Assembly: GCA_022709995.1 (NCBI GenBank)
Contig: JAKLHU010000012.1
Coordinates: 1 to 13,012 of the forward strand
DNA: 13,012 nt
Direction of reading: 5' to 3'
From: Verrucomicrobiota bacterium
GTDB lineage: Bacteria > Verrucomicrobiota > Lentisphaeria > Oligosphaerales > Oligosphaeraceae
Both the position numbers and the translations under genes were made by a program. Of the stretch, positions 2,580-13,012 are shown piece after piece (the stretch's first letter is position 1; every line of letters begins with the position of its first letter). The notes beneath the pieces are model-generated. The model was not told where the DNA came from. It saw only the letters and a program-made list of their open reading frames with translations, and did not search any database.

Positions 2580-2702
2580 GTAATCGGTCACTATTGAGAA
2601 TTGAGCGATAAAGGAGACAACGTTTGAGCGCCTCAGGGCCTGAGGCGCCACCTTGGCGCGCCAGGCCACTAGGACCGCCATTATCAATGGGTGACCGATT
2701 AC
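2580..2702 (+). mobile_element. IS66-like MITE, copy A (123 bp)
   Basis: Small non-autonomous element with terminal inverted repeats GTAATCGGTCAC at the left and GTGACCGATTAC at the right; compared with copy B the similarity continues through about 20 bases. The core is a 10 bp arm palindrome: GCGCCTCAGG (2628-2637), central G, CCTGAGGCGC (2639-2648). A second palindrome, TGGCGCGCCA, follows. It is nearly identical to the reverse complement of 10039-10162 and related to 12824-12925. Ends starting GTAA are an IS66-family trait. No target duplication is obvious here (GTCATTTT before, GTCGCTAC after), so this copy is older or rearranged. A TTG-initiated open frame crosses it and runs into the next gene. 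Confidence 0.85.
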
Positions 2703-2794
2703 GTCGCTACGTCTTCTTCCGCGATGGCGGTTTGCAAACGGTTCCCGGCGAGGTAAAGTTATGGGTCGCGGCCACGACCGTGACCTGGTTCGAC

Positions 2795-2929
2795 CCGGAC
2801 GGTTCCGGCGCTTTGCCCGGACCCCCGTCCATTTCCCTTGCGGCAATCCTTTTCGACCGGCTCGGCAAGGGAAGCATTTGGATAGCGGCCGACGGTCGCG
2901 ACCGACTTCGGCCCCGGACGGTTCCGGGG
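2795..2929 (+). promoter_or_regulatory. Hairpin-rich leader before the serine hydrolase gene
   Basis: The non-coding stretch between copy A of the MITE and the serine hydrolase contains a series of stems. CCGGA-CGGT-TCCGG is at 2795-2808. TTCCCTTGC (2833-2841) pairs with GCAAGGGAA (2865-2873). GGCCGA (2887-2892) pairs with TCGGCC (2908-2913), enclosing the 12-base palindrome CGGTCGCGACCG (2893-2904). CCCCGGA-CGGT-TCCGGGG is at 2912-2929. The first and last share the same CGGT tetraloop, giving a direct repeat GGACGGTTCCGG 119 bases apart. It could be a 5' leader with regulatory structure or part of an older repeat. I recognise no known riboswitch. Confidence 0.4.
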
Positions 2930-2959
2930 ACGCCAAATCCTCCCCAACAGGAAACACCT

Positions 2960-4060
2960 ATGCTCAAAGAAGATATCATGGCTCTGCAGACTCGTATTCA
3001 GAATCGGCTGGACGCCGCCGTCGCCGCCGGCGATGAGATCGGCTGCCAATTCGCGGCCTTCGTCGACGGCGAATTGGCGGTGAACGTCTGCGCCGGCTGG
3101 CTTGACGCCGGGCGCACCCGGCCGGTGGACGAGCAGTCGCTGTTTCCGGTTTTTTCGACCGGCAAAGGCATTGCCAGCACGGCTTTCCTCCGCCTGGTTG
3201 AACGCGGCCTCCTGACCTTGGACCAGAAGGTCGGCGAAATCTGGCCGGAATTCGCCAGCCATGGCAAGGAGGCGACCACGGTGCGCCACATCCTGCAGCA
3301 CCGCTCGGGCGTCTGCCTGCGAACGCCCTACGATTGCATCGAACAAATTGCCGACTGGGACGAGATGTGCCGGCGGGTGGCGGCCGCGAAGCCGGTTTTC
3401 CCTCCGGGCTCGGCCACGCGTTATCAGACCATCAACTACAGCTGGCTGCTGGGGGAATTGGCGCAACGGGTGACCGGCAAGCCATTCCGGCAAGTCATTG
3501 AGGCGGAGGTGCTGCATCCGGTCGGCCTCCGGAATCTCTTCTTTGGCGTTCCGGACGGCGCGCTCTGCCGGGTGGCGCCGGTGATCCGCGGAACAGACAT
3601 GCCGGCCATTCCGGAGCATCCGCCCTGCTGGGATTATTCCCTGGAGGAGATCATGAACAACCGTGTCATCCAGCAGGCCTGCCTGCCGGGCTTCAACTGT
3701 ATAACCAGCGCCATCGACCTGGCCAAACACTATGCGGCATTGCTGGACAGCTGGAAGGCGCCGCGCGTGCTCAACCCGGCGACGCTCCGCGCCGCCCGGA
3801 CCATGAGCCTGGCCCCGAACGACCCGAAGCCGTCCTCACCGGCGGCATGGAGCACGCACGGACTGGGCTATGCCGTTTCCGATCCGGACGAACAGGGCGT
3901 CGCCCGTCAGTTCGGCCACGGCGGCTACGGCGGCGCCACCGGCGCGGCTTGGGAGCCTGGCCAGCTTAGCTACGGCTTTACCGCCAATCTTATGCGCAGC
4001 ACCGCCAACCATCGCTACGAAATTATCGATTTGGTCAAGCGTCAATGCCGGAAATCCTGA
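2960..4060 (+). CDS. Serine beta-lactamase-like hydrolase/esterase (EstB/class C family)
   Basis: Hydrolase of the serine beta-lactamase/penicillin-binding-protein fold, 366 residues, most like EstB-type carboxylesterases rather than true beta-lactamases. Active-site motifs in order: S66-T-G-K69 (SxxK nucleophile and base), Y155-Q-T in place of YxN, and H320-G-G near the C terminus (the KTG-equivalent strand). No signal peptide is present, so it should act in the cytoplasm, which argues against antibiotic resistance. The frame is open back to a TTG at 2624, but those 112 codons come from the MITE and the hairpin leader. The ATG at 2960 has AGGA seven bases upstream and starts the conserved part; the ATG at 2978 is a second possibility. 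The GH43-like gene follows by 130 bases on the same strand, suggesting joint ester and glycoside processing. Substrate unknown. Confidence 0.85.
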   Translation: MLKEDIMALQTRIQNRLDAAVAAGDEIGCQFAAFVDGELAVNVCAGWLDAGRTRPVDEQSLFPVFSTGKGIASTAFLRLVERGLLTLDQKVGEIWPEFASHGKEATTVRHILQHRSGVCLRTPYDCIEQIADWDEMCRRVAAAKPVFPPGSATRYQTINYSWLLGELAQRVTGKPFRQVIEAEVLHPVGLRNLFFGVPDGALCRVAPVIRGTDMPAIPEHPPCWDYSLEEIMNNRVIQQACLPGFNCITSAIDLAKHYAALLDSWKAPRVLNPATLRAARTMSLAPNDPKPSSPAAWSTHGLGYAVSDPDEQGVARQFGHGGYGGATGAAWEPGQLSYGFTANLMRSTANHRYEIIDLVKRQCRKS

Positions 4061-4190
4061 TGACGCGGGTTCGCCATCGCCGCTTCGCCGCCAGCCGGCC
4101 AGCGGGGATATAGGATTAACAAGAAGAATGAGGCATTCCTGCAAGCGGCCGAGAGCCGGCGCTGAAAAACATGGAAAAGGAAGAAAAGCG

Positions 4191-5087
4191 ATGACGACGC
4201 ACCGGATCATCAAGCTTGGCACCGTCGATCTGGACACGGTCGAGAGCAATCCGATCGTGTTCCGGGGAAGACTTTATCGGTTTGAATATATTCGCCAGCG
4301 CTATCATGCCAATGCGCTCCATAATTCCTACTTCCGTTTTGTCGATGTGGAGGCGGGTGTCGCCGGCCGGCCTTTTGGCGTTGGCCTGCACATGGGAAAC
4401 GCCTTTGTCTGGGACAACCGCGTCGTGGTGACGGCGGTGGAAGATTGGGGCAAGAAGCATTTCTATCAGCTCGAATCCGAAGATTTGGTCACCTGGACCG
4501 AGCCGCGCGTCATCTTGACCGGCGACGGATGGCAAGGCTACAACACGTCGCTCTGCCGGGCCGGCGATCGTTTCCTGCTGACCTTTGAGCTCGGCGCGCC
4601 GAAAGAGCTGGTCGGCAGGCCGTTCACGATGTTTTTCGCGGAATCGACTGACCTGCGGAATTGGACAGTCCTGCCGGGCCGGCATTTCGATCGCGACATC
4701 TACACGGGCGGCCCGATGCTGCGCTGGTTCAACGGCTGGTACTACTTCTTCTATCTGCATGCCTATGCCGGCGACAGAGGCAGAAACTGCTACCGCCAGC
4801 ATGTCGCGCGCTCGCTGGATTTGCTGAACTGGGCCTGGAGCAAGTACAATCCGATTCTCGACTTCGGGCCGGATGACCAGCGGCCGGGCCGGGGTCACTT
4901 CACCCCCGCCCAGCTGGAAAAGCTGGCGACTGCCGACAATATCAATGTCTCCGATCTCGACATGTGCGAGTGGCAGGGCGGACTGTATATGGTCTACTCC
5001 TGGGGAAATCAGCACGGCGTCGAATTCCTGGCCGAAGCCAAGGTGGAAAACTGCACCGAACAGGACTTCTGCGAAAGCTTGTTCTGA
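4191..5087 (+). CDS. GH43-like five-bladed beta-propeller protein
   Basis: A 298-residue protein with the sequence rhythm of five-bladed propeller glycosidases (GH43/GH32/GH62/GH130 superfamily). The blade motif S-x-D-L-x-x-W occurs three times, at about 96-102 (EDLVTW), 152-158 (TDLRNW) and 208-214 (LDLLNW), each followed by a short strand. Aromatic-rich blade strands such as GWYYFFYLHAY (182-192) alternate with these. Candidate acidic catalytic residues are D75, E133, D255/D257 and E260, but I cannot assign them without a structure or alignment. There is no signal peptide or carbohydrate-binding module, so it is probably intracellular and acts on imported small sugars, or it could be a non-catalytic relative. 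The start at 4191 has AAGGA about ten bases upstream. It converges with the CoA operon across a 192-base gap with no clear terminator. Confidence 0.75.
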   Translation: MTTHRIIKLGTVDLDTVESNPIVFRGRLYRFEYIRQRYHANALHNSYFRFVDVEAGVAGRPFGVGLHMGNAFVWDNRVVVTAVEDWGKKHFYQLESEDLVTWTEPRVILTGDGWQGYNTSLCRAGDRFLLTFELGAPKELVGRPFTMFFAESTDLRNWTVLPGRHFDRDIYTGGPMLRWFNGWYYFFYLHAYAGDRGRNCYRQHVARSLDLLNWAWSKYNPILDFGPDDQRPGRGHFTPAQLEKLATADNINVSDLDMCEWQGGLYMVYSWGNQHGVEFLAEAKVENCTEQDFCESLF

Positions 5088-5279
5088 GGCGCTGATGCCA
5101 AAATCCCGCGCTCCGTCACGCCATGTAGATGCCAAGCCGGCGGCGTTGCGTTTCGCCAGGACGGCAAGATCGCTCCATGCCCGTCGCTGCCGGTTGCATG
5201 CCTCGTGACGCCGCCGCCTCAAAACGGCGCGGCGAACCGATCATCCGGCCGACGCATCGTCTCCTTGGCTTTCGGCCGC

Positions 5280-6023
5280 TCACAGGCGCAGGCCGCCGTC
5301 GATTTCCAGAATTTTGCCGTTGACGAAGTCATTGCCGATGATGAAGCAGACGGTGTCGGCGATTTCCTGCATTTGCCCCAGGCGCCGCAGGGGGATTTGC
5401 GCGGTGATTTTTTCCAGAATCTCGGGTCGGATGGCGGCCGTCATTTCGGTTTGCAGATAGCCGGGGGCGATGGCGGCGCAGCGGATCTGGTAGCGGGCCA
5501 GTTCCTTGCTCCAGGTGACCGTCATGGCGTCGACGCCGGCTTTGGCGGCGGAATAGTTGGTCTGCCCGAAGTTGCCGCAGCGCGACACCGAGGAGATGTT
5601 GATGATGACGCCGCCGCCGCCGGCTCTGGCGGCCATCCGGGCGGCGGCGGCTCGTCCACACAGGAAAACGCCGGTCAGGTTGACGTGCAGGACGCTCTGG
5701 AAATCGGCCAGGGGCATGGTGGAGAGGACGCCGTCCTTGTTTTTCACCAGCAGGCCGTCACGCGTGATGCCGGCGTTGTTGACCAGCACGTCGACGGCCG
5801 GCAGACGGTCAAAAAATGCCTGGACGGCGGTTTCGCTGCTGACGTCGCAGGCGGCGCAGGTGAGGTGCGGCGAAGCGGCGGCCTGTCTGAGCCCGTCCAG
5901 GGTATCAAGGTTGAGGTCGCAGGCGTGGACGATGGCGCCCCGGGCGAGGAGCGCAAGGGCGATTTGGCGGCCGAGGCCACGGCCGGCCCCGGTGACGACG
6001 CAATGCTTGTCCGCGATGTCCAT
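5280..6023 (-). CDS. PhaB/FabG-like short-chain 3-hydroxyacyl-CoA (ACP) reductase
   Basis: Classical short-chain dehydrogenase, 247 residues, probably interconverting acetoacetyl-CoA and (R)-3-hydroxybutyryl-CoA. Cofactor motif TGAGRGLG is at 11-18, D60 contacts adenine, NNAG is at 82-85, and the catalytic tetrad is N115, S144, Y157 and K161. The sequence around the active site, NFGQTNYSAAKAG, resembles PHB acetoacetyl-CoA reductases more than housekeeping FabG. D36 closes the second strand (VHACD), which in this superfamily favours NAD(H) over NADP(H). That would suit an oxidative role or NADH-driven reduction. It is the last gene of the four-gene operon, 21 bases after the 3-hydroxybutyryl-CoA dehydrogenase. 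A role as fatty-acid FabG cannot be ruled out, but no other fatty-acid synthesis gene is nearby. Confidence 0.87.
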   Translation of the reverse strand: MDIADKHCVVTGAGRGLGRQIALALLARGAIVHACDLNLDTLDGLRQAAASPHLTCAACDVSSETAVQAFFDRLPAVDVLVNNAGITRDGLLVKNKDGVLSTMPLADFQSVLHVNLTGVFLCGRAAAARMAARAGGGGVIINISSVSRCGNFGQTNYSAAKAGVDAMTVTWSKELARYQIRCAAIAPGYLQTEMTAAIRPEILEKITAQIPLRRLGQMQEIADTVCFIIGNDFVNGKILEIDGGLRL

Positions 6024-6044
6024 GGCTCCTCCCGGTGCTGGTGG

Positions 6045-6893
6045 TCAGTAGGTGTAGAACCCGGCGCCGCTTTTGCGGCCGAGCTGGCCGGCGGCGACAC
6101 GGCTGGTCAGCGCCGCCGCCGGGCGATAGTTGGGATTGCCCAGGCTGTCGGCCAGCTTCGTCAGAATGTCGCAGCAGATGTCGAGCCCGATCAGGTCGGC
6201 GACTTGCAACGGCCCGGCCGGGTGCAGGGTGCCCAAACGCATGGCCGCGTCAATGTCGGCCGGCGTCGCGATGCCGGCGTCGACCAGCCTGGCCGCCTCG
6301 TTGATGAACGGCAGCAGCAAGCGGTTGACGATGAATCCCGGCGAGTCCTTGACGGTCACCGGCTCTTTGCCGCAACGCTTCAGCAGGGCGATGACACCGT
6401 CGGCCCGCGCGGCCGGAAAGGCCGGCGTGGTGATGACTTCGACCAGGGCCAGGCGGGTCGGCGGGTTGAAGAAATGGAGGCCGAGAAACCGTTCGGGGCG
6501 GGTGAGCGCGCTGGACAGTTCCGTGACGCTCAGCGAGCTGGTGTTGGTGCCGATGAGAGTCTGCGGCGAAACGACCCCTTCCAGCTGCCGATAGAGGGCC
6601 GTCTTGGCGGCGACGTCTTCAAAGATGGCCTCGATGACCAGGTCGGCGTCGGCCAGTTCGGCCAAGCCGGCCGCCGGGTGCAGGCGGGCTAAAATCTCCT
6701 CGGCCGCCGCCGCCGTCAGCGAGCCTTTTTCCACGCTTTTGGCCATTCGGCCGCGGATTGCCGCGACGCCTTTGGCGGTGAGGGCCGGGTTGACGTCCCA
6801 CAGGCGGGTCGTAAAACCCTTTTCGGCAAACATCTGGGCGATGCCGCCACCCATGGTTCCGGCGCCGACGACGGCGATGACTGCGATATCCAT
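6045..6893 (-). CDS. hbd: 3-hydroxybutyryl-CoA dehydrogenase (S-specific, Hbd/PaaH type)
   Basis: NAD-dependent L-3-hydroxyacyl-CoA dehydrogenase, 282 residues, the normal length for the single-function short-chain enzyme. The Rossmann motif GAGTMGGG is at 10-17, with D33 as the NAD-ribose acid. Catalytic residues are visible at S119, H140 (in HFFNP), E152 and N190 (in SPGFIVNR), matching the family spacing. The C-terminal helical domain includes D-x-A-M-R-L-G (215-221) and ends R-K-S-G-A-G-F-Y-T-Y. The ATG at 6893 is chosen over the upstream frame extension (to 6977) because AGGAG lies a few bases before it and the Rossmann strand starts at once. It lies 35 bases after the thiolase stop. With the thiolase it makes (S)-3-hydroxybutyryl-CoA or runs in the oxidative direction. 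No crotonase is encoded in this window. Confidence 0.93.
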   Translation of the reverse strand: MDIAVIAVVGAGTMGGGIAQMFAEKGFTTRLWDVNPALTAKGVAAIRGRMAKSVEKGSLTAAAAEEILARLHPAAGLAELADADLVIEAIFEDVAAKTALYRQLEGVVSPQTLIGTNTSSLSVTELSSALTRPERFLGLHFFNPPTRLALVEVITTPAFPAARADGVIALLKRCGKEPVTVKDSPGFIVNRLLLPFINEAARLVDAGIATPADIDAAMRLGTLHPAGPLQVADLIGLDICCDILTKLADSLGNPNYRPAAALTSRVAAGQLGRKSGAGFYTY

Positions 6894-6928
6894 GCTGTTC
6901 TCCTGTTGATTTTCCGGACGGGGCGGTT

Positions 6929-8101
6929 TCAGATGTTTTCGAGCAGCACGGCGACGCCCATGCCGCCGCCGACGCACAGCGAGGCGACGCCCAGCGCCGC
7001 GCCCTGGCGTTTCATCTGGTGCATCAGGGTGACGATGATGCGGGCGCCACTGGCGCCGATCGGATGGCCCAGGGCGATGGCCCCGCCGTTGACGTTGACG
7101 TTGACCGGGTCCAGGCCCAGTTCCGCCAGGACGGCCAGCGACTGGACGGCAAACGCCTCGTTCAGTTCCCAGAGATCGATGTCGCCGGTTTGCAGCCCCT
7201 GGCGCTGCAGCAGGCGACGGACGGCGTCCACTGGCCCCATGCCCATCATGTCGGGCGGGCAGCCGGTGCAGACCGCGTCGCGCAAAATCACACAGCCGGA
7301 GGTGTCGGCCAGGCGTGAACGCTCGGTGATCACGAGGGCGGCGGCGCCGTCGTTGATGCCCGAGGCATTGCCGGCCGTGACGGTCCCATCCGGCTTGAAG
7401 GCGGGCCGCAGCCGGGCCAGGACCGCCGTCGTCGTGTCCGGCCGCGGATGCTCGTCGCGCGTCACTACGATCTCGCTTTTGCGCTGACGCACGGTCACGG
7501 GGACGATTTCCGCCTCGAAGCGGCCCTCGGCGACGGCGGTGGCGCAGCGGCGCTGGCTTTCGGCCGCATAGGCGTCCTGGGCTTCGCGCCCGATCGCGTA
7601 GTGCGCGGCGATGTTTTCGGCGGTCAGTCCCATGTGGGCTTGGCTGAAGGCGTCGGTGAGGCCGTCGCTTTCGGCGCTGTCGAGGGCGACCGTGCGGCCA
7701 TAGCCGGCGCCTTGCCGGAGGGCGGGCAGGAGGAACGGGGCGCCGCTCATGCTTTCGGCGCCGCCGGCGAGGACGGCCCTCGCTTCGCCGAGGCGGATGG
7801 CCCGCAGCGCCTGCAGCACCGCCTGCATGCCGGAGCCGCAGACCTGGTTGACCGTGCAGGCCGGCGAGCCGACCGGAACGCCGCAGCCGATGGCAATCTG
7901 CCGGGCCGGATTCTGGCCGAGGCCCGCCTGCAGGACATTGCCGAACAGCGTTTCGTCAATCGCCTCCGGCGCCAGCCCGGAGCGGGCCAGGGCGGCGGCG
8001 GCGGCGACTTGGCCGAGCTTGACGGCCGAGACGCTGGCAAGAGTGCCGTTGAGGCTGCCGATCGCCGTGCGGGCGGCGGCGCAAATCAAAGCTTGGTTCA
8101 T
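6929..8101 (-). CDS. Acetyl-CoA C-acetyltransferase (thiolase II)
   Basis: Biosynthetic-type thiolase, 390 residues, joining two acetyl-CoA into acetoacetyl-CoA or cleaving it. All catalytic residues are present: acyl-accepting C88 in NQVCGSG, H346 in GHPIGASG, C376 in SLCVGGG, plus the NEAFA motif at 314-318. Length is that of PhaA/AtoB/ThlA enzymes. The start at 8101 has a clear AAGGAG ribosome binding site; an in-frame ATG eight codons earlier overlaps the CoA-transferase and lacks a site. It is the second gene of the operon, 20 bases after the CoA-transferase and 35 before the 3-hydroxybutyryl-CoA dehydrogenase. Its neighbours indicate acetoacetyl-CoA as the substrate rather than longer beta-oxidation intermediates. 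Confidence 0.94.
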   Translation of the reverse strand: MNQALICAAARTAIGSLNGTLASVSAVKLGQVAAAAALARSGLAPEAIDETLFGNVLQAGLGQNPARQIAIGCGVPVGSPACTVNQVCGSGMQAVLQALRAIRLGEARAVLAGGAESMSGAPFLLPALRQGAGYGRTVALDSAESDGLTDAFSQAHMGLTAENIAAHYAIGREAQDAYAAESQRRCATAVAEGRFEAEIVPVTVRQRKSEIVVTRDEHPRPDTTTAVLARLRPAFKPDGTVTAGNASGINDGAAALVITERSRLADTSGCVILRDAVCTGCPPDMMGMGPVDAVRRLLQRQGLQTGDIDLWELNEAFAVQSLAVLAELGLDPVNVNVNGGAIALGHPIGASGARIIVTLMHQMKRQGAALGVASLCVGGGMGVAVLLENI

Positions 8102-8121
8102 GGCTTCTCCTTGGTCTTGAG

Positions 8122-9651
8122 TCACTTGAAGATGGCGGCCGGCATCTGCCGCAGGTCGGGGCTGACGGCGGGCTTGAAGGCCATGTGGTTGAAAATGTCG
8201 CGCTGCAGGTCAATCCCGGGAGCGATTTCCACCAGTTCGAGACCGCTGGCGGTCAGCCTGAAGACTGCCCGTTCAGTGATGAAGAGGACTGGCCGGTTTT
8301 TTTGCCGGGCGTAGTCGCCGCTGAACGTCACGTGCTCGACCGCCTGGACGAATTTGTCAAAGCGGCCTTCCTGGAGAATGCGCAGCGTGCCGTCGACAAA
8401 GTCCATCTCCAGACCGCCGGCCGTGAAGGTGCCGGCGAAGACGACTTTGGCGGCGTTCTGGGTGATGTTCATGAATCCGCCGATGCCGGCGATGCGCCCC
8501 GAGAACTTGCTGACGTTGACATTGCCGCGGGCGTCCGCCTCGGCCAGGCCCAGGAAGGCGACGTCGAGGCCGCCGCCGTCATAGAAGTCGAACATGTACG
8601 GCTGGTCGATGACCGCCTGGGGGAAGGTGGAGGCGCCGAAGCTCAGGCCGGAGGCGGGGATGCCGCCGATGGGGCCGGCTTCGACCGTGAAGGTCATGTC
8701 GCCAAGCTTGCCCTCTTCGTAAGCCGCCAGGGCAATGCCTTCGGGAAGGCCGATGCCGAGGTTGACCACGTCGCCAGGAGTGATTTCCGCCAGGGCCCGC
8801 CGGGCGATGGTGCGGCGCGGGCCGTTTTCCAGACTCGGCAGGGCCAGGGTGGCGACATCGCCCTGCCGAATGTAGTTCGGATTGTAGCGCTCGGCGAAAG
8901 TCTGCAGATGCTCGCCCGGCGGCGCGACCACGACCGCGTCGACGAAAATGCCGGGAATCTGGATGTTCTTGGGGTCGCGGCTGAAGTCGTCCACCAGGCG
9001 TTCGACCTGGACAATGACCTTCCCGCCGCTGTTTCTCACGGCGATGGCGATCGACAGCGCCTCGGCGGAAATGACTTCGTTTTCAAACGAGATGTTGCCG
9101 AAGCTGTCGCTGGAGGTGCCGCTGAGCAGGCCGATGTCGAGCTTGAACGCCTTGTAAAACAGCCATTCGCGACCTTGCAGATGCACCAGCTCGACCAGGT
9201 CCTCGACCGTGCGTTCGTTCAATTTGCCGCCGCCATGGCGGGGGTCGACAAAAGTCTGCAGGCCGACATGGGTCAGGCGGCCGGGAGTCCCGGACGCGAT
9301 TTCCCGGAACAGCTGGCTGATCACGCCCTGCGGAAAATTATAGGCCTCGATGCGGTTTTCCAGGGCGAGGCGTCCCATGGTCGGCGCCAGGTTCCAGTGG
9401 CCGCCGATAACCCGCTTGAGCATGCCGTCGTGGCCGAAATGGTTGAGGCCGCGCGTCTTGCCGTCGCCCTGTCCGGCCGCATAGACCAGCGTCAGCGCCG
9501 ATGGCGACCCATCGGCCAGATAGCGTTTCTCCAGTTCCGCGGTCAACAGTTCGGGGTGCGTGCAACCCACGAATCCGCCGGTGGCGACGGTCGCGCCGTC
9601 CGGCACCATTTTCACTGCCTCCGCCGCCGTCATTATCCTTGTCTTGCGCAT
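8122..9651 (-). CDS. Fused alpha/beta short-chain acyl-CoA transferase (YdiF/Pct type)
   Basis: Class I CoA-transferase with both subunit domains in one 509-residue chain, as in E. coli YdiF and propionate CoA-transferase. The N-terminal half carries T-G-G-F-V-G-C (24-30) and the glycine-rich G-G-K-L-N (141-145) segments. The C-terminal half has N-L-G-I-G-L-P-E (298-305) and the catalytic glutamate E324 in F-T-V-E-A-G-P-I-G-G, which forms the covalent glutamyl-CoA intermediate. The reaction moves CoA between short-chain acids such as acetate, propionate, butyrate, acetoacetate or 3-hydroxybutyrate; the exact pair is not readable. GGTGGAAG precedes the ATG. It is the first gene of the operon, so the promoter should be in 9652-9900. 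It likely feeds a free acid into, or releases one from, the thiolase and dehydrogenase steps downstream. Confidence 0.9.
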   Translation of the reverse strand: MRKTRIMTAAEAVKMVPDGATVATGGFVGCTHPELLTAELEKRYLADGSPSALTLVYAAGQGDGKTRGLNHFGHDGMLKRVIGGHWNLAPTMGRLALENRIEAYNFPQGVISQLFREIASGTPGRLTHVGLQTFVDPRHGGGKLNERTVEDLVELVHLQGREWLFYKAFKLDIGLLSGTSSDSFGNISFENEVISAEALSIAIAVRNSGGKVIVQVERLVDDFSRDPKNIQIPGIFVDAVVVAPPGEHLQTFAERYNPNYIRQGDVATLALPSLENGPRRTIARRALAEITPGDVVNLGIGLPEGIALAAYEEGKLGDMTFTVEAGPIGGIPASGLSFGASTFPQAVIDQPYMFDFYDGGGLDVAFLGLAEADARGNVNVSKFSGRIAGIGGFMNITQNAAKVVFAGTFTAGGLEMDFVDGTLRILQEGRFDKFVQAVEHVTFSGDYARQKNRPVLFITERAVFRLTASGLELVEIAPGIDLQRDIFNHMAFKPAVSPDLRQMPAAIFK

Positions 9652-10030
9652 GTTCTTCCACCCTTGTTAGTTGTTCGAAATCGAGGCGGCGCTCTGGTCG
9701 GGGGCACTTCGGTCTTGGCGAGGCAAAACCGTGTGCTTGGCGCCATGTGCTGTTGACATTGCCCTTCCACCGCCCCGAAGCGGAGGGAAAGCCGGCACGG
9801 GTTGCCGGGCGAAAGAATACGGGTATCGCTGATGTTGCCGAAATGCCGTCCTCCTGGTCAGAAAATACAATCCATTCATGGGCGAAAATTGTGTGGCTTG
9901 GTTCGGGATGTCGTTGTCTTCCAACAATCATGGCGGTGGCGATTTCCCCTGGCCAAGGTTGGTTTGGCACTGCGGACATGAATTTACTGTGCCGAACGCC
10001 GTATGCAAGCCAATCGGTCGGGTAAGCAAA
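9652..10030. other. Gene-free region upstream of the CoA-transferase operon
   Basis: About 380 bases with no recognisable gene. Base composition drops here (9841-9900 is 45% GC, against GC-rich flanking genes). One frame on each strand stays open across it, but neither gives a familiar protein. The minus-strand frame begins inside the MITE and runs into the CoA-transferase in the wrong frame. The operon promoter should lie here. On the minus strand the AT-rich GGATTGTATTTTCT (around 9861-9874) could hold a -10, but I find no good -35. The minus strand also has a perfect AGGAGG around 9850 with no ATG or GTG start just after it. Confidence 0.5.
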
Positions 10031-10038
10031 GGGAACTG
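10031..10038. repeat. Left 8-bp target-site duplication of MITE copy B
   Basis: GGGAACTG, identical to 10163-10170 directly after the right end of the element. It shows that this copy arrived by transposition and that the junctions have not been rearranged since. Confidence 0.85.
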
Positions 10039-10162
10039 GTAATCGGTCACCCATTGATAATGGCGGTCCTAGTGGACAGGCGCGCCAAGTAGGCGCCTCA
10101 GGCCCTGAGGCGCTCAAGCGTTGACTCCTCTATCGCTCAATTCTCAATGGGTGACCGATTAC
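10039..10162 (-). mobile_element. IS66-like MITE, copy B (124 bp) with 8-bp target duplication
   Basis: Full-length copy of the element at 2580, in opposite orientation. The ends are GTAATCGGTCACCCATTGA and its complement, about 22 of 23 bases matching between the two termini. It is bracketed by a perfect direct repeat GGGAACTG at 10031-10038 and 10163-10170, the 8 bp duplication expected from insertion. Ends starting GTAA plus an 8 bp duplication are together diagnostic of IS66-family transposition. At 124 bp it cannot encode a transposase, so it must be mobilised in trans. It contains the GCGCCTCAGG/CCTGAGGCGC palindrome and the GGCGCGCC segment shared with the other copies. Confidence 0.92.
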
Positions 10163-10170
10163 GGGAACTG
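10163..10170. repeat. Right 8-bp target-site duplication of MITE copy B
   Basis: GGGAACTG, the partner of 10031-10038. Removing the element and one copy would restore the presumed empty site AAAGGGAACTGCAG. Confidence 0.85.
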
Positions 10171-10299
10171 CAGTCCCTCATTTTTGCGGGAAGCAACCGG
10201 ACAATTTTCGACAGCCAGGCGGAGGGCGGCACGGTCCCATGTCCGGGTGATTAGAACGCAACTATTTTCGATAAAGGACGTTGTGTCGATGGTTGGCGA

Positions 10300-10320
10300 G
10301 CACGGGCTGGGAGCTCGTGC
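10300..10320. repeat. REP-like hairpin downstream of thiL
   Basis: GCACGGGCT (10300-10308) pairs with AGCTCGTGC (10312-10320) at eight of nine positions around a GGG loop. It lies 33 bases past the thiL stop. The pattern resembles the short 'gcacgggctggaagcccgtgc' palindromes scattered through many bacterial genomes (recalled, not searched). No U run follows on the minus strand, so it is not a standard terminator. Confidence 0.5.
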
Positions 10321-10352
10321 CACCTCTTCCGTGCCGCTTTGCCGGCCGGCGT

Positions 10353-11255
10353 TCAGAAGGCAAAATGGTCCCACCCGGCCACGGCAAGTGGCCGGCCGGC
10401 GGGGTCCCACAGGCCGGCCGCGGCCGTGAACTCGCCCAGCCGCGTCAGCGGCGTGTCCGCAAACGGCCAGCCGGTAGTCAGGGACGGGACGCGCTCCGGC
10501 GGCACGGCGAAGATCAGCTCGAAGTCCTCGCCGTCCCCACAGGCCTGTTCCAGGGTCGCGCGACCGCGGCGCGGCACGGCGTCCAGGTCGAGGGTCAGGC
10601 CGACGTGGGAGGCGGCGCAGATTCTGGCGGCGTCGCGCAGGAGGCCGTCGCTGACATCCATCATGGCCCGGGCCAAGTGCCGCTGCGCCAGCCACTGGCC
10701 TTCGGCGCAGCGCGGCGTGAACAGCAGGTGATGCTGGCTGGCAAACGAATCGCCAAAGCACCCGGTCGCAAACAGCTGGTCGCCGGGCCGGGCGCCGGAA
10801 CGCCGGATCACCTGGTCGGCGGCGACTTCGCCGAGGATCGTCAGGCTGGCGACGTCGTCATGGGGGGTGGCCGCGAAGTCGCCGCCGACCATGCTGACGC
10901 CATATTCGGCGGCGAGGGCGATGATGCCGTCGTAGAACTCCCGCAGCCAGGCTTCGTCGCGGTCTTTGGCGAAGGCGCCGGCCAGCAGGCACAGCGTCGG
11001 CGTCCCGCCCATGGCGGCGATGTCGCTCAGGTTGCGGGCCAGCAGCTTGCGGCCGGCCAGGCGCGGGGGCGTGGCCTGATCTCCGCGGCTGACATAGTGG
11101 CGGTCGCCGACCACCTGGTCGACGGCCAGCAGCAGCAGCCGGTTTTCGCCCCAGGTGATGGCGGCGCAGTCATCTCCCGGCGGGATGACGACGGCGGCCG
11201 GGAAGGCCGGCAGGCGGCGGAACAGGTCCGCAAAGAAGTCGTCTTCGGTCCTCAT
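10353..11255 (-). CDS. thiL: Thiamine-monophosphate kinase
   Basis: ATP-dependent kinase making thiamine diphosphate from thiamine monophosphate, the last step of cofactor synthesis. It has 300 residues, slightly shorter than the usual ~320. Motifs of the PurM/ThiL fold appear in order: P-P-G-D-D (25-29), D46 in the first metal-binding strand, N-L-S-D-I-A-A-M-G-G (75-84), G-G-D (124-126), M-D-V-S-D-G-L (199-205) and G-E-D-F-E-L-I-F (242-249). The Asp-rich sites that bind Mg-ATP and substrate are all kept. Its ATG overlaps the stop of the MTHFR-like gene as ATGA, so translation is coupled. No other thiamine gene is in view, so the link to folate chemistry is by position only. Confidence 0.94.
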   Translation of the reverse strand: MRTEDDFFADLFRRLPAFPAAVVIPPGDDCAAITWGENRLLLLAVDQVVGDRHYVSRGDQATPPRLAGRKLLARNLSDIAAMGGTPTLCLLAGAFAKDRDEAWLREFYDGIIALAAEYGVSMVGGDFAATPHDDVASLTILGEVAADQVIRRSGARPGDQLFATGCFGDSFASQHHLLFTPRCAEGQWLAQRHLARAMMDVSDGLLRDAARICAASHVGLTLDLDAVPRRGRATLEQACGDGEDFELIFAVPPERVPSLTTGWPFADTPLTRLGEFTAAAGLWDPAGRPLAVAGWDHFAF

Positions 11256-12670
11256 TGGGCGACCTCGCCATTTTCCAAGGCCTCCAGGTCATTGGCGGCG
11301 CTGGCCAGGCGGATTACCCGGTGGAAGAAGCATTCCCGGCTGCCGTCCTCGCACCGTCCGTCGGTGCTGGCGCCGCCGCAGGCGCCATAGACCAGGCCTT
11401 TGGGGCAGGAGCGGTTCAGCAGGCCCTGGCACCAGCCGGCCGCGGCCTCTTCGGCGGCGCTGCGGAAGGTGATTCGCCGCACGGCTTCGCGGAGCGGCCG
11501 CGGTCGGGTCGGCCGATGCAGCCAGCGTGTCCAGCGGTCGCCCAGGGTCGGCGGCGCAATCGTATTGAAGCCGGGCTGGGTGAGTTCGGGGGCGAAGTCG
11601 CGCCGGCCAGGTCGCAGCAGGTCGGCGAACAGGTAGTACGGCGGGTCCGGATAGAGGTCGGACACGCCGGGGCCGAACGAGATGTCGCCGTGCCGCTGGC
11701 GCCAGGCCTCCAGCCAGGCGTCATAGTCAGGGCATTCGGCGGCGCAGTCGTGCACGCGGTCGACGATCTGCGCCAGGAGATTCGGCGTGCGGACGCCGGT
11801 GACCTGGACGCCGCTGTAGCCGAGCAGACGGCAGCCGACAATCTGCAGGGCCGCCCGCGACAGCTGCGCCTCCAGAAACTGGTCCGCCGTTCCGGCGGCT
11901 TCCCGCATGATGAGGGCGGCCAGGGGGATCGGCACCGGCACGCCGGGCCAGAAGCCCTCCGCCAGCTTCAAGGCGTCGTCCTGGCTCATCAGCACCACCC
12001 GGGCCAGCACCGGCAGGTACAGCTCTCGCATCTGCAGGAACCACTGCAGCTCCTGCGCCTTTTTCATGTCCCAGCCGGCCTGGGCCACCAGAAAGCCGGC
12101 GCCGTGCGTGATTTTACGTTGCAGTTTCGCGTATTGCAGATAAACGCCCTCGCAGGTGTATTTGTAGGGGCTGACGGTGGCGCCGACCCAGACATCCGAA
12201 CCGAATTGGTGGGCCGTGACGGCTGTCGTCACGCCGTCCTGATAGACCGTCGGCACGCCCTCGGCGCCGTTTTTGCCGAGCAAGTCTCCGGTCACCGCCA
12301 GAAAGCATCGAATGCCCTTGGCGCGCGCTTCGGCCAGCAGCGTCTTGGCGCGGGTCTGGTCCGTGCCGCGACCGGAGATGGCCATCAGCACCGGCTTGCC
12401 GGAACTCTCCGCCGCCTGCGCCGCGAAGTCAACCGGGTCCTGGCGTTGGACGGTCGGCCAGCGGTCCGTCACCGCGATGCCGTGCACTGCCGGCAGCGTT
12501 CCGACCCGCTTGAAGATTGGCGCCGCCGCCGCCATGTACGAGTCGAGGGGCTGGTTGCTGGGCGGGCTGTTCATTTCCAGCAGAAAACAGAACTGGCCGG
12601 CACGCATGGCCGCAGCCAGGCGGCCGTCACCCTCAAAACTCATCTTCAATTGACGCGTTTGTTGAACCAT
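11252..12670 (-). CDS. Methylenetetrahydrofolate reductase fused to Cys-rich MTHFR C-terminal domain
   Basis: A 472-residue fusion. Residues about 25-310 form a MetF-type TIM barrel that would reduce 5,10-methylene- to 5-methyl-tetrahydrofolate with FAD. Signs are the opening acid E32 (LLEMNSPP, matching the catalytic Glu of MetF), V-T-D-R-W (67-71), and the V-T-G-D turn at 126-129 where E. coli MetF has RGD. Residues about 410-472 are the Cys-rich domain known from MetV and similar C-terminal extensions: C422-P-K, G-A-C431-G-G, G-R-C440-E and C447, a plausible metal or cluster site. Residues 310-405 link them, rich in Pro and Arg. The ATG at 12670 has AGAGGA ten bases upstream; ATG 12643 is an alternative, and the frame extends uselessly to 12865. 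The stop overlaps thiL. The electron donor (NADH or a partner protein) cannot be told. Confidence 0.85.
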   Translation of the reverse strand: MVQQTRQLKMSFEGDGRLAAAMRAGQFCFLLEMNSPPSNQPLDSYMAAAAPIFKRVGTLPAVHGIAVTDRWPTVQRQDPVDFAAQAAESSGKPVLMAISGRGTDQTRAKTLLAEARAKGIRCFLAVTGDLLGKNGAEGVPTVYQDGVTTAVTAHQFGSDVWVGATVSPYKYTCEGVYLQYAKLQRKITHGAGFLVAQAGWDMKKAQELQWFLQMRELYLPVLARVVLMSQDDALKLAEGFWPGVPVPIPLAALIMREAAGTADQFLEAQLSRAALQIVGCRLLGYSGVQVTGVRTPNLLAQIVDRVHDCAAECPDYDAWLEAWRQRHGDISFGPGVSDLYPDPPYYLFADLLRPGRRDFAPELTQPGFNTIAPPTLGDRWTRWLHRPTRPRPLREAVRRITFRSAAEEAAAGWCQGLLNRSCPKGLVYGACGGASTDGRCEDGSRECFFHRVIRLASAANDLEALENGEVAQ

Positions 12671-12686
12671 GGAACACGGTTCCTCT
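12671..12686 (-). promoter_or_regulatory. Hairpin overlapping the ribosome binding site of the MTHFR-like gene
   Basis: On the minus strand the start region reads AGAGGAACCGTGTTCCATG. GGAAC and GTTCC (12683-12679 and 12675-12671) can pair around a 3-base loop. This would cover the GG of the Shine-Dalgarno sequence and end directly at the ATG. It could hold translation low until the stem is opened. The stem is only five pairs, so the effect may be small. Confidence 0.35.
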
Positions 12687-12730
12687 CTGCTGTTCCCATT
12701 CTGTCGGCCGGCAACGGCCGACGCCACCCC

Positions 12731-12755
12731 GGAGCGCTCCCCCCGGCAAGGGGGA
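12731..12755. repeat. GC-rich palindromes in the leader of the MTHFR-like gene
   Basis: GGAGCGCTCC (12731-12740) is a perfect palindrome. It overlaps a second stem, TCCCCC (12738-12743) pairing with GGGGGA (12750-12755) around a CGGCAA loop. The two are mutually exclusive because they share TCC. The position, about 60-85 bases before the start codon, would suit a leader switch, but it may simply be a REP-type repeat. No U run follows. Confidence 0.4.
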
Positions 12756-12823
12756 TGATGTGGGAAATATAACGTCTGGCCCGCGCCCTGACAAATCGCC
12801 GGCCGGGTTTCCGCTCGGTTACG

Positions 12824-12925
12824 GTAAGCGGTCAGCCATTGATAACTGCGCTCTTGAGGAGTCAACGCTTCGGCGTCTCCGGGCCGGAGGCGCCACCGTG
12901 GCGCGCCAGGCCACTACCGCCGCCA
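12824..12925 (+). mobile_element. IS66-like MITE, copy C, diverged and right-truncated
   Basis: Same orientation as copy A. The left end GTAAGCGGTCAGCCATTGATA aligns to GTAATCGGTCACCCATTGA of copy B, and the middle keeps GGAGTCAACGCTT and GGCGCGCCAGGCCACTA. Alignment stops at about 12925 (CCGCCGCCA); the right inverted repeat is missing. The central palindrome is kept as GCGTCTCCGG / CCGGAGGCGC (12873-12882 and 12884-12893), where an A-T pair of copies A and B is a C-G pair. This is an older or differently ancestored copy upstream of the MTHFR-thiL transcript. Confidence 0.75.
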
Positions 12926-12974
12926 GATGCAAGGACTCCTATGTTACATGGCCGGATAACCGGGGAATGGGGAG

Positions 12975-12988
12975 CAGGCTAAAGCCTG
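12975..12988. repeat. Short REP-like hairpin at window end
   Basis: CAGGC (12975-12979), TAAA loop, GCCTG (12984-12988), followed by AACTAC. On the minus strand it reads GTAGTTCAGGCTTTAGCCTG, a motif I recall as a dispersed repeat in several bacterial phyla but cannot verify here. No gene is visible in the rest of 12926-13012. Confidence 0.4.
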
Positions 12989-13012
12989 AACTACATACGC
13001 CGCCGCCCACCC

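Follow-up and report, generated by a model that had tools for sequence, protein, structure and literature searches.

The window analysed here comprises 13,012 bp and is the whole of contig C24 (JAKLHU010000012.1) in the draft genome of a Verrucomicrobiota bacterium of the family Oligosphaeraceae (G000; 2.93 Mb, 692 contigs, 64.2% complete). It carries three related gene-less repeats of about 124 bp, referred to as copies A, B and C, the last of which is split by a second, unrelated mobile element. Taken together, the sequences make it fairly likely that two layers of mobile elements meet at this locus, miniature inverted-repeat transposable elements (MITEs) of the IS66 type and IS110-type miniatures that enter their ends. 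For comparison, we used 29 genomes of the family, including G000 itself, and 18 others of the order; G001 (same genus) is 91% and G023 85% complete, and G008 is a single-contig genome.

Copy B (10039..10162, plus strand) is 124 bp long and has identical copies on contigs C1 and C235. As originally predicted, it is flanked by a perfect 8-bp target duplication, GGGAACTG, at 10031..10038 and 10163..10170. Its left terminal inverted repeat (TIR; 10039..10061, plus strand) comprises 23 nt and is 96% complementary to the right one (10140..10162, minus strand). A palindromic core, recognised by repeat and folding analysis, is present in all three copies (10093..10113 in B, 2628-2648 in A and 12873-12893 in C), and A and B fold far better than shuffled sequences (z -6.5 and -9.3, respectively; 0/200 shuffles as good in either case). 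Copy A (2580..2702, 123 bp) lies on the minus strand, opposite to B, and is 94% complementary to it across 110 nt. Its left repeat is eroded and one base short, and it has no target duplication, its flanks GTCATTTT and GTCGCTAC differing by 4 mismatches (locus L019). The predicted coordinates held for A and B. Copy C (12824..12935, minus strand) ends at 12935 and not at 12925; 112 of its 124 bp are present, and it breaks off in the middle of its right repeat because the second repeat starts at 12936. The latter is represented by the first 77 of 126 bp (12936..13012, plus strand), is 97% identical to the 126-bp unit described below and is truncated at 13012, where the contig ends. The final 12 bp of copy C, expected to read CTGACCGATTAC, would lie past this insert and thus off the contig.

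All three repeats are intergenic, and the neighbouring genes are ordinary by Pfam: a ZIP transporter, UPF0029, a beta-lactamase family protein, a short-chain dehydrogenase, a 3-hydroxyacyl-CoA dehydrogenase, a thiolase, a CoA transferase, AIRS (read as ThiL-like) and MTHFR, besides a weak GH43 match below cut-off. An Rfam scan of the window gave no hit above the gathering scores.

Copies and target duplications of the 124-bp repeat

With copy B as query, 138 first-look candidates were obtained in the G000 draft, of which 40 were scored; this gave at least 53 matches at E <= 0.001, including cases in which one copy is matched a second time on the reverse strand. The 19-nt terminal repeat GTAATCGGTCACCCATTGA, searched with up to 3 mismatches, was found 79 times in forward and 75 times in reverse orientation, compared to 0 and 1 for the reversed control. 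These 154 matches in 2.93 Mb bear out both the GTAA-starting inverted repeats and the high genome load proposed from the window. Since many contigs of the draft end inside repeats, as the window does at 12936-13012, such copy counts are lower bounds. In plasmid and phage collections, copy B had no match.

A script applied to the loci fetched from G000 retained 53 distinct copies with both ends, the core and a length of 100-140 bp. The spread of the MITE was recent enough for 23 of these 53 full-length copies, copy B among them, to keep exact 8-bp duplications; 13 further copies had one mismatch (36/53 with at most one), 5 had two, and 12, including copy A, had four or more. Exact flanking repeats of any other length from 4 to 12 were not found in these copies. 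When the left flank of each copy was compared to the right flanks of the other copies, 0/2756 pairs matched exactly and 8/2756 with at most one mismatch. Gene-less relatives of 298 bp in G008 and G023 have the same ends; L150, L152, L153 and L154 show exact 8-bp duplications and L151 shows none. At L111:201-465, L128, L134 and L139, the same IS66 ends bound longer repeats without genes, in which CACGGGCTGGAAGCCCGTG-type palindromes occur. Another repeat of G000, about 85 bp long and starting with CTCCTATGAAACCAAAGG or a close variant, occurs at L110:80, L133:1062 and L028 (minus strand, 2021), and in L132 and L226 a MITE end stands directly behind a start resembling this repeat.

An IS66 relative of the repeat

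The portion of PMC11946415 that deals with the IS66 family gives inverted repeats of 20-30 bp starting with GTAAGCG and duplications of 8 bp, in line with the traits invoked by the original prediction. IS66 transposase genes (PF03050) were detected in 10 of the 29 family genomes, and 22 IS66 loci were fetched with up to about 1.5 kb on either side, so that some ends fall outside. Only one of them, L086:1151-3716 in G001 (contig C5; 2566 bp), has both ends MITE-like. Its ends, GTAATCGGTCACCGATTGA, match 18/19 of the terminal nucleotides of the MITE at each side, and the 8-bp duplication TTTTTCGC flanks it on both sides; a full IS66 element that nearly shares the terminal ~20 bases of the MITE, to be looked for according to the original prediction, thus exists in the same genus. 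At L082 (G012), both ends differ from the MITE at 4 positions, and the inverted repeats of the remaining loci differ more. The transposase of L086 (tnpC, 591 aa) scores above the cut-offs of both PF03050 and NF033517, and a gene for a 140-aa DUF6788 protein (L086:3093-3515) overlaps its start by 4 nt; the Pfam scan of this element covered these two frames. By eye, a small frame at L086:623-937, beside a neighbouring IS66 element, appears similar to the DUF6788 frame.

Copy B matches the right end of L086 over 32/35 nt (91%) and the other end over the 22-23-nt repeat, while the repeats L128, L111, L139 and L131 of G000 match the right end over 39-62 nt at 79-90%. The middle of the MITE has no convincing match in L086, so the kinship lies at the ends, and simple deletion within this element does not account for the MITE. 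It also differs from L086 in that it is gene-less and 124 bp long, whereas L086 carries tnpC and the DUF6788 gene. The limited similarity, together with the result that PF03050 has no match in the 64%-complete G000 draft, which weighs against the IS66 assignment as do the unduplicated copy A and the 12/53 copies with four or more flank mismatches, would fit a MITE of another transposase family that makes 8-bp duplications and merely resembles IS66 at its ends. We regard this as very improbable given that an IS66 element of the same genus shares with the MITE 18/19 nt at both ends, 32/35 nt at one end, the GTAA start and the 8-bp duplication, and that its transposase exceeds the cut-offs of both models. 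As judged from these ends and duplications, the 124-bp repeats are almost certainly IS66-family MITEs, and the IS66 reading of the original prediction is supported overall. In the mechanism that we propose for this layer, an IS66 transposase acting in trans would recognise the GTAATCGGTCA... ends and insert the MITE by a staggered cut, which would yield the 8-bp target duplications.

A second repeat inside the terminal repeats

Many MITE copies that seem truncated break at one and the same base, after which a common sequence follows. This sequence is a repeat of 126 bp, CTCCTATG...TGTACA, unrelated to the MITE and located in the MITE end at TCAATGG/CT/GACCGATTAC. The unit sits between CAATGG and CTGACCGATTAC, within the terminal repeat, and each of its two junctions has CT; the target can also be written CAATGGCTGACC and, with the CT core, CAATGGCTGACCGATTAC. 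Members of this second family are mostly 96-156 bp long, have the same orientation in nearly all cases and often stand head to tail in tandem, as in G001 (L053), where one whole unit is followed by 71 bp of a second. With the 126-bp unit as query, matches were obtained in 7/29 family genomes including G000. A 19-nt motif representing one of two versions of the right end of the unit, searched with at most one mismatch, occurs 19 times in G000, 14 times in G001, 104 times in G008, 11 times in G023 and 3 times in G005, and is absent from the other 24 family genomes and the 18 further genomes of the order examined. In viral contigs, an 18-nt motif of the element was matched once (L333), where the rest of the element is absent.

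The sequences adjoining the unit were counted over all loci gathered to that point; the loci of G000 were partly fetched through their MITE match and many inserts of G001, G005, G008 and G023 were found by the insert sequence, which is a sampling bias. We distinguished 116 right ends. Exact CTGACC, which about 2% of such stretches would contain by chance, comes next in 74 of them, the following unit of a tandem in 23, CTTACC in 5 and other sequences in 14. In the 74 CTGACC cases, the offset from the motif is 21 nt (61 ends), 26 nt (11 ends) or one base off these values, at 20 or 25 nt (2 ends). Inspection by eye resolved the 14 others into 12 near variants (including CTGGCC, CTGACT, CTGAACG, CTAACC, CCGACC and one tandem with a changed base), one different site (L171) and one spurious motif match (L202). 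The 110 distinct left ends comprise 52 that follow TIR-like sequence, 29 that follow a unit, 5 that follow GAGCATTR and 24 others, several of which stem from a different repeat and a few of which, including copy C of the window, are near variants. In G000 itself, 19/21 left ends follow TIR-like sequence (at most 2 mismatches to CAATGG), the exceptions being L224 and L228. The copies at contig ends in G001 adjoin CTGACC in 12/12 cases, and in L234 and L235 the sequence that follows is less like an IS66 end. By eye, the CTGACC site of L234 lies inside an apparent gene. On the sequences at hand, the end counts and the G001 contig-end copies make CTGACC the part of the target that matters most, and the IS66 end the usual place where CTGACC is found.

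In G000, 14 full inserts are assembled, 12 of them in TIR-like context. For 9 split MITEs, the duplication around MITE plus insert could be compared: it is exact in L133 and L166, has one mismatch in L051 and L142, and has 3-7 mismatches in the remaining five. Since the duplication encloses the MITE together with the insert in four copies, the MITE came first and the unit entered its end later. Such an insertion splits the IS66 repeat and should therefore immobilise the MITE. Instead of an insertion, the break in copy C could reflect a join made during assembly, which would agree with the contig ending inside the insert and with the many draft contigs that end in the same repeats. We consider this explanation extremely unlikely, as the junction is assembled on both sides at 12 other loci of G000 and as junctions of this type also occur in G001 (L053, where a tandem copy is present) and in G008, whose genome is a single contig.

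The core dinucleotide of intact MITE ends is CT in 62/106, GT in 39/106 and another one in 5/106 cases. The 12 split ends, compiled by hand, all have CT (12/12 versus 62/106; Fisher p 0.003); since the insert itself supplies a CT, this comparison is confounded and cannot prove an escape. The unsplit end of 16 split copies (15 from G000 and 1 from G001) carries CT in 10, GT in 5 and CG in 1. The IS66 relative L086 has GT at the core, which may mean no more than that GT is the ancestral state. As a hypothesis only, which these counts fit, the change from CT to GT may be an escape from the attack by the second layer, as GT ends would be spared if the insert requires CT.

Candidate mobilisers and known systems

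Measured from the nearest start motif, sought up to 3000 bp away (many right ends had no start within this reach), the spans of the second family are 96-131 bp, apart from a single 156-bp span, four spans of 350-472 bp, which we take to include a neighbouring unit, and one that reaches 2184 bp. The latter, L196 in G001, is the sole span above 500 bp with both ends, and encodes a recombinase of the IS110 family (PF01548, 1.1e-19; PF02371, 1.1e-13). A search of a contig collection with this recombinase retrieved a single record, whose sequence equals that of the G001 gene. The 156-bp miniature L177 of G005 matches one end of L196 with its positions 1-83 (80/83) and the other end with its positions 70-156 (84/87). 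The two halves join in TTGCCGC, which is present at both breakpoints in L196, as would be left by an internal deletion between short repeats. L196 and L177 also have a common left flank, CACTACAGAAGA, and a common right flank, CTGACCCATTAC. At both junctions of the units of this family, the dinucleotide core is CT, no longer duplication is present, and the target is sequence-specific. According to the sections of PMC11187229 on cargo mobility, cargo placed between the ends of an IS1111-type element moves with transposase and non-coding RNA supplied in trans, so gene-less units are mechanically reasonable. We conclude from this comparison of sequences that the second family is probably moved by an IS110-type recombinase.

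The mechanism that we propose starts from what can be read in the sequences (the membership of the first layer, the duplications, the MITE-first order in four copies, the target, the orientation, the tandems and one deletion derivative) and adds an enzyme and a guide, both inferred. Miniatures would arise as internal deletions of an IS110 element such as L196 and would be inserted in trans by a DEDD recombinase of the IS110 family that uses a guide RNA of its own. CT stands at both junctions, and head-to-tail arrays are a recurrent product.

Several results weigh against this proposal. A search of the units for a guide gave an 8-nt target match in the 112-bp unit, equalled in 40 and 27 of 1000 mononucleotide shuffles for the two forms of the target, and nothing remarkable in the other 3 unit types; nor is the single-strand folding of three miniatures unusual (z -1.3, +1.2 and +0.5). 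The case for a parent of the second layer is based on a single assembled IS110 element from one relative, and in G023 (85% complete), which has 11 miniature ends, a PF02371 search gave no match. Two other IS110 genes were considered as parents of the miniatures and rejected, a fragment in G000 (L199) and an element in G008 (L211). Their transposases are weakly alike at most, both to that of L196 and to each other (L196-L211, 13/42 residues, E 4e-5; L199-L196, 30/127, E 1.5; L199-L211, no match) and both sit inside a unit, so they are read as later insertions; by the same token, L196 could in principle be one as well.

If L196 were such a third-layer insertion into an existing miniature, it would not be the parent, and the true mobiliser would be another element. 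IS110 genes indeed sit inside units elsewhere (L199, L211 and, by the same junction, L213 and L137), their transposases are unlike each other, and the 7-bp repeat at the L196 junctions can be read as an insertion duplication. This explanation is nevertheless unlikely in our view. Deletion between short direct repeats is a usual origin of such a junction, the whole of L196 lies between GGTCAG and AG like the miniatures do, and, in the sections of PMC11187229 on insertion products, IS110- and IS1111-type insertions are described as lacking duplicated bases. A different suggestion, that of an IS200/IS605-type (Y1 HUH) miniature as the second element, in which the ends and not a guide RNA choose the target, has several features in its favour: insertion 3' of a short motif (GGTCAG on the other strand), hairpins near the ends, a duplication of no more than 2 nt, a fixed orientation and tandem arrays. 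In addition, a stem-loop near the conserved end exists in two versions (CCCAGCG..CGCCGGG and CCCCGGTG..CACCGGGG), and Y1 genes are present in G008 (5), G005 (1), G013 (2) and G017 (3), all four of which also match the unit. Against it stand the lack of PF01797 matches in the miniature carriers G000, G001 and G023 (64%, 91% and 85% complete, respectively) and the structure of the miniature L177, that of an IS110 element with a clean deletion; we consider the Y1 explanation less probable still than a third-layer origin of L196. We thus retain the IS110-type recombinase as the candidate mobiliser.

Further IS110-type arrangements were observed around the units. In G000, a different IS110-type element appears to enter the palindrome CAGGCTAAAGCCTG of the 126-bp unit at position 49, possibly as a third layer. 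The junction is found at L199:1273-1321 (C134), L213:939-987 (C289) and L137:709-757 (C246); the IS110 gene is on the contig in L199 only, and the contigs of the other two end just past the same junction. In G008, eight IS110 copies (L189, L201 and L204-L209) are embedded in longer repeats whose palindromes also occur in the 298-bp IS66-type elements, and in L201, L205, L206, L208 and L209 a miniature followed by CTGACCGA is located at the right. At L167:1326, L174:1836 and L211:527 of the same genome, the same left end is followed by another body and then directly by a 126-bp-type unit; this variant is about 175-230 bp long, or about 2.2 kb with an IS110 gene. The right half of a unit in L218:1-176 (G000, C330) adjoins the end of another transposase-like frame, which may be ISKra4-like.

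The two layers can be compared to described systems as far as the portions of the literature cited here extend. The first layer shares the terminal repeats and the 8-bp duplications with the IS66 family, of which a matching element exists in the same genus. The second resembles IS4321 and IS5075 of the IS1111 family, which insert site-specifically in the terminal repeats of Tn21-family transposons (parts of PMC11187229 and PMC8269217), in that the terminal repeats of another transposon family are the target. It differs from them in consisting mostly of gene-less miniatures of 96-156 bp, in having IS66 MITEs as victims and in its common tandem arrays. A MITE as landing site of an IS110/IS1111-type element is also known from QMITE2 of Coxiella burnetii, the target of IS1111 (excerpts of PMC5896051); there, a full IS1111 enters the repetitive extragenic palindrome (REP) of the MITE, whereas here miniatures enter the terminal repeat of the MITE. 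As far as PMC11208160 and PMC11187229 describe them in the portions used, IS621 and other IS110 elements with bridge RNA or seekRNA likewise have a CT core and a short specific target, and their donor ends can be moved in trans. The miniatures described here differ in lacking a recombinase, and their guide RNA is hypothetical. The IS1111 group has subterminal inverted repeats of 11-13 bp, which L196 lacks, its best 12-nt end pairing (7/12) being matched in 456/500 shuffles. In the parts of the open-access literature covered by our search, no IS66-derived MITE or IS110-derived miniature was described, which is weak evidence of novelty.

In its fullest form, our interpretation is that a lineage of Lentisphaerae harbours a two-tier system of gene-less parasites, in which high-copy IS110-type miniatures, mobilised in trans by an RNA-guided recombinase, have the terminal repeats of IS66 MITEs as their programmed target, with GT as a possible escape; we see even chances for and against this whole. 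If the interpretation of the second layer is true, it would provide more than 100 natural pairs of donor end and target for a bridge-RNA-type recombinase and would show a minimal donor, its two ends being conserved over about 12 bp and 36-45 bp (by eye). It would also exemplify a mobile element that targets the ends of another and thereby splits it, and the CT/GT difference at the core makes an escape of the target directly testable.

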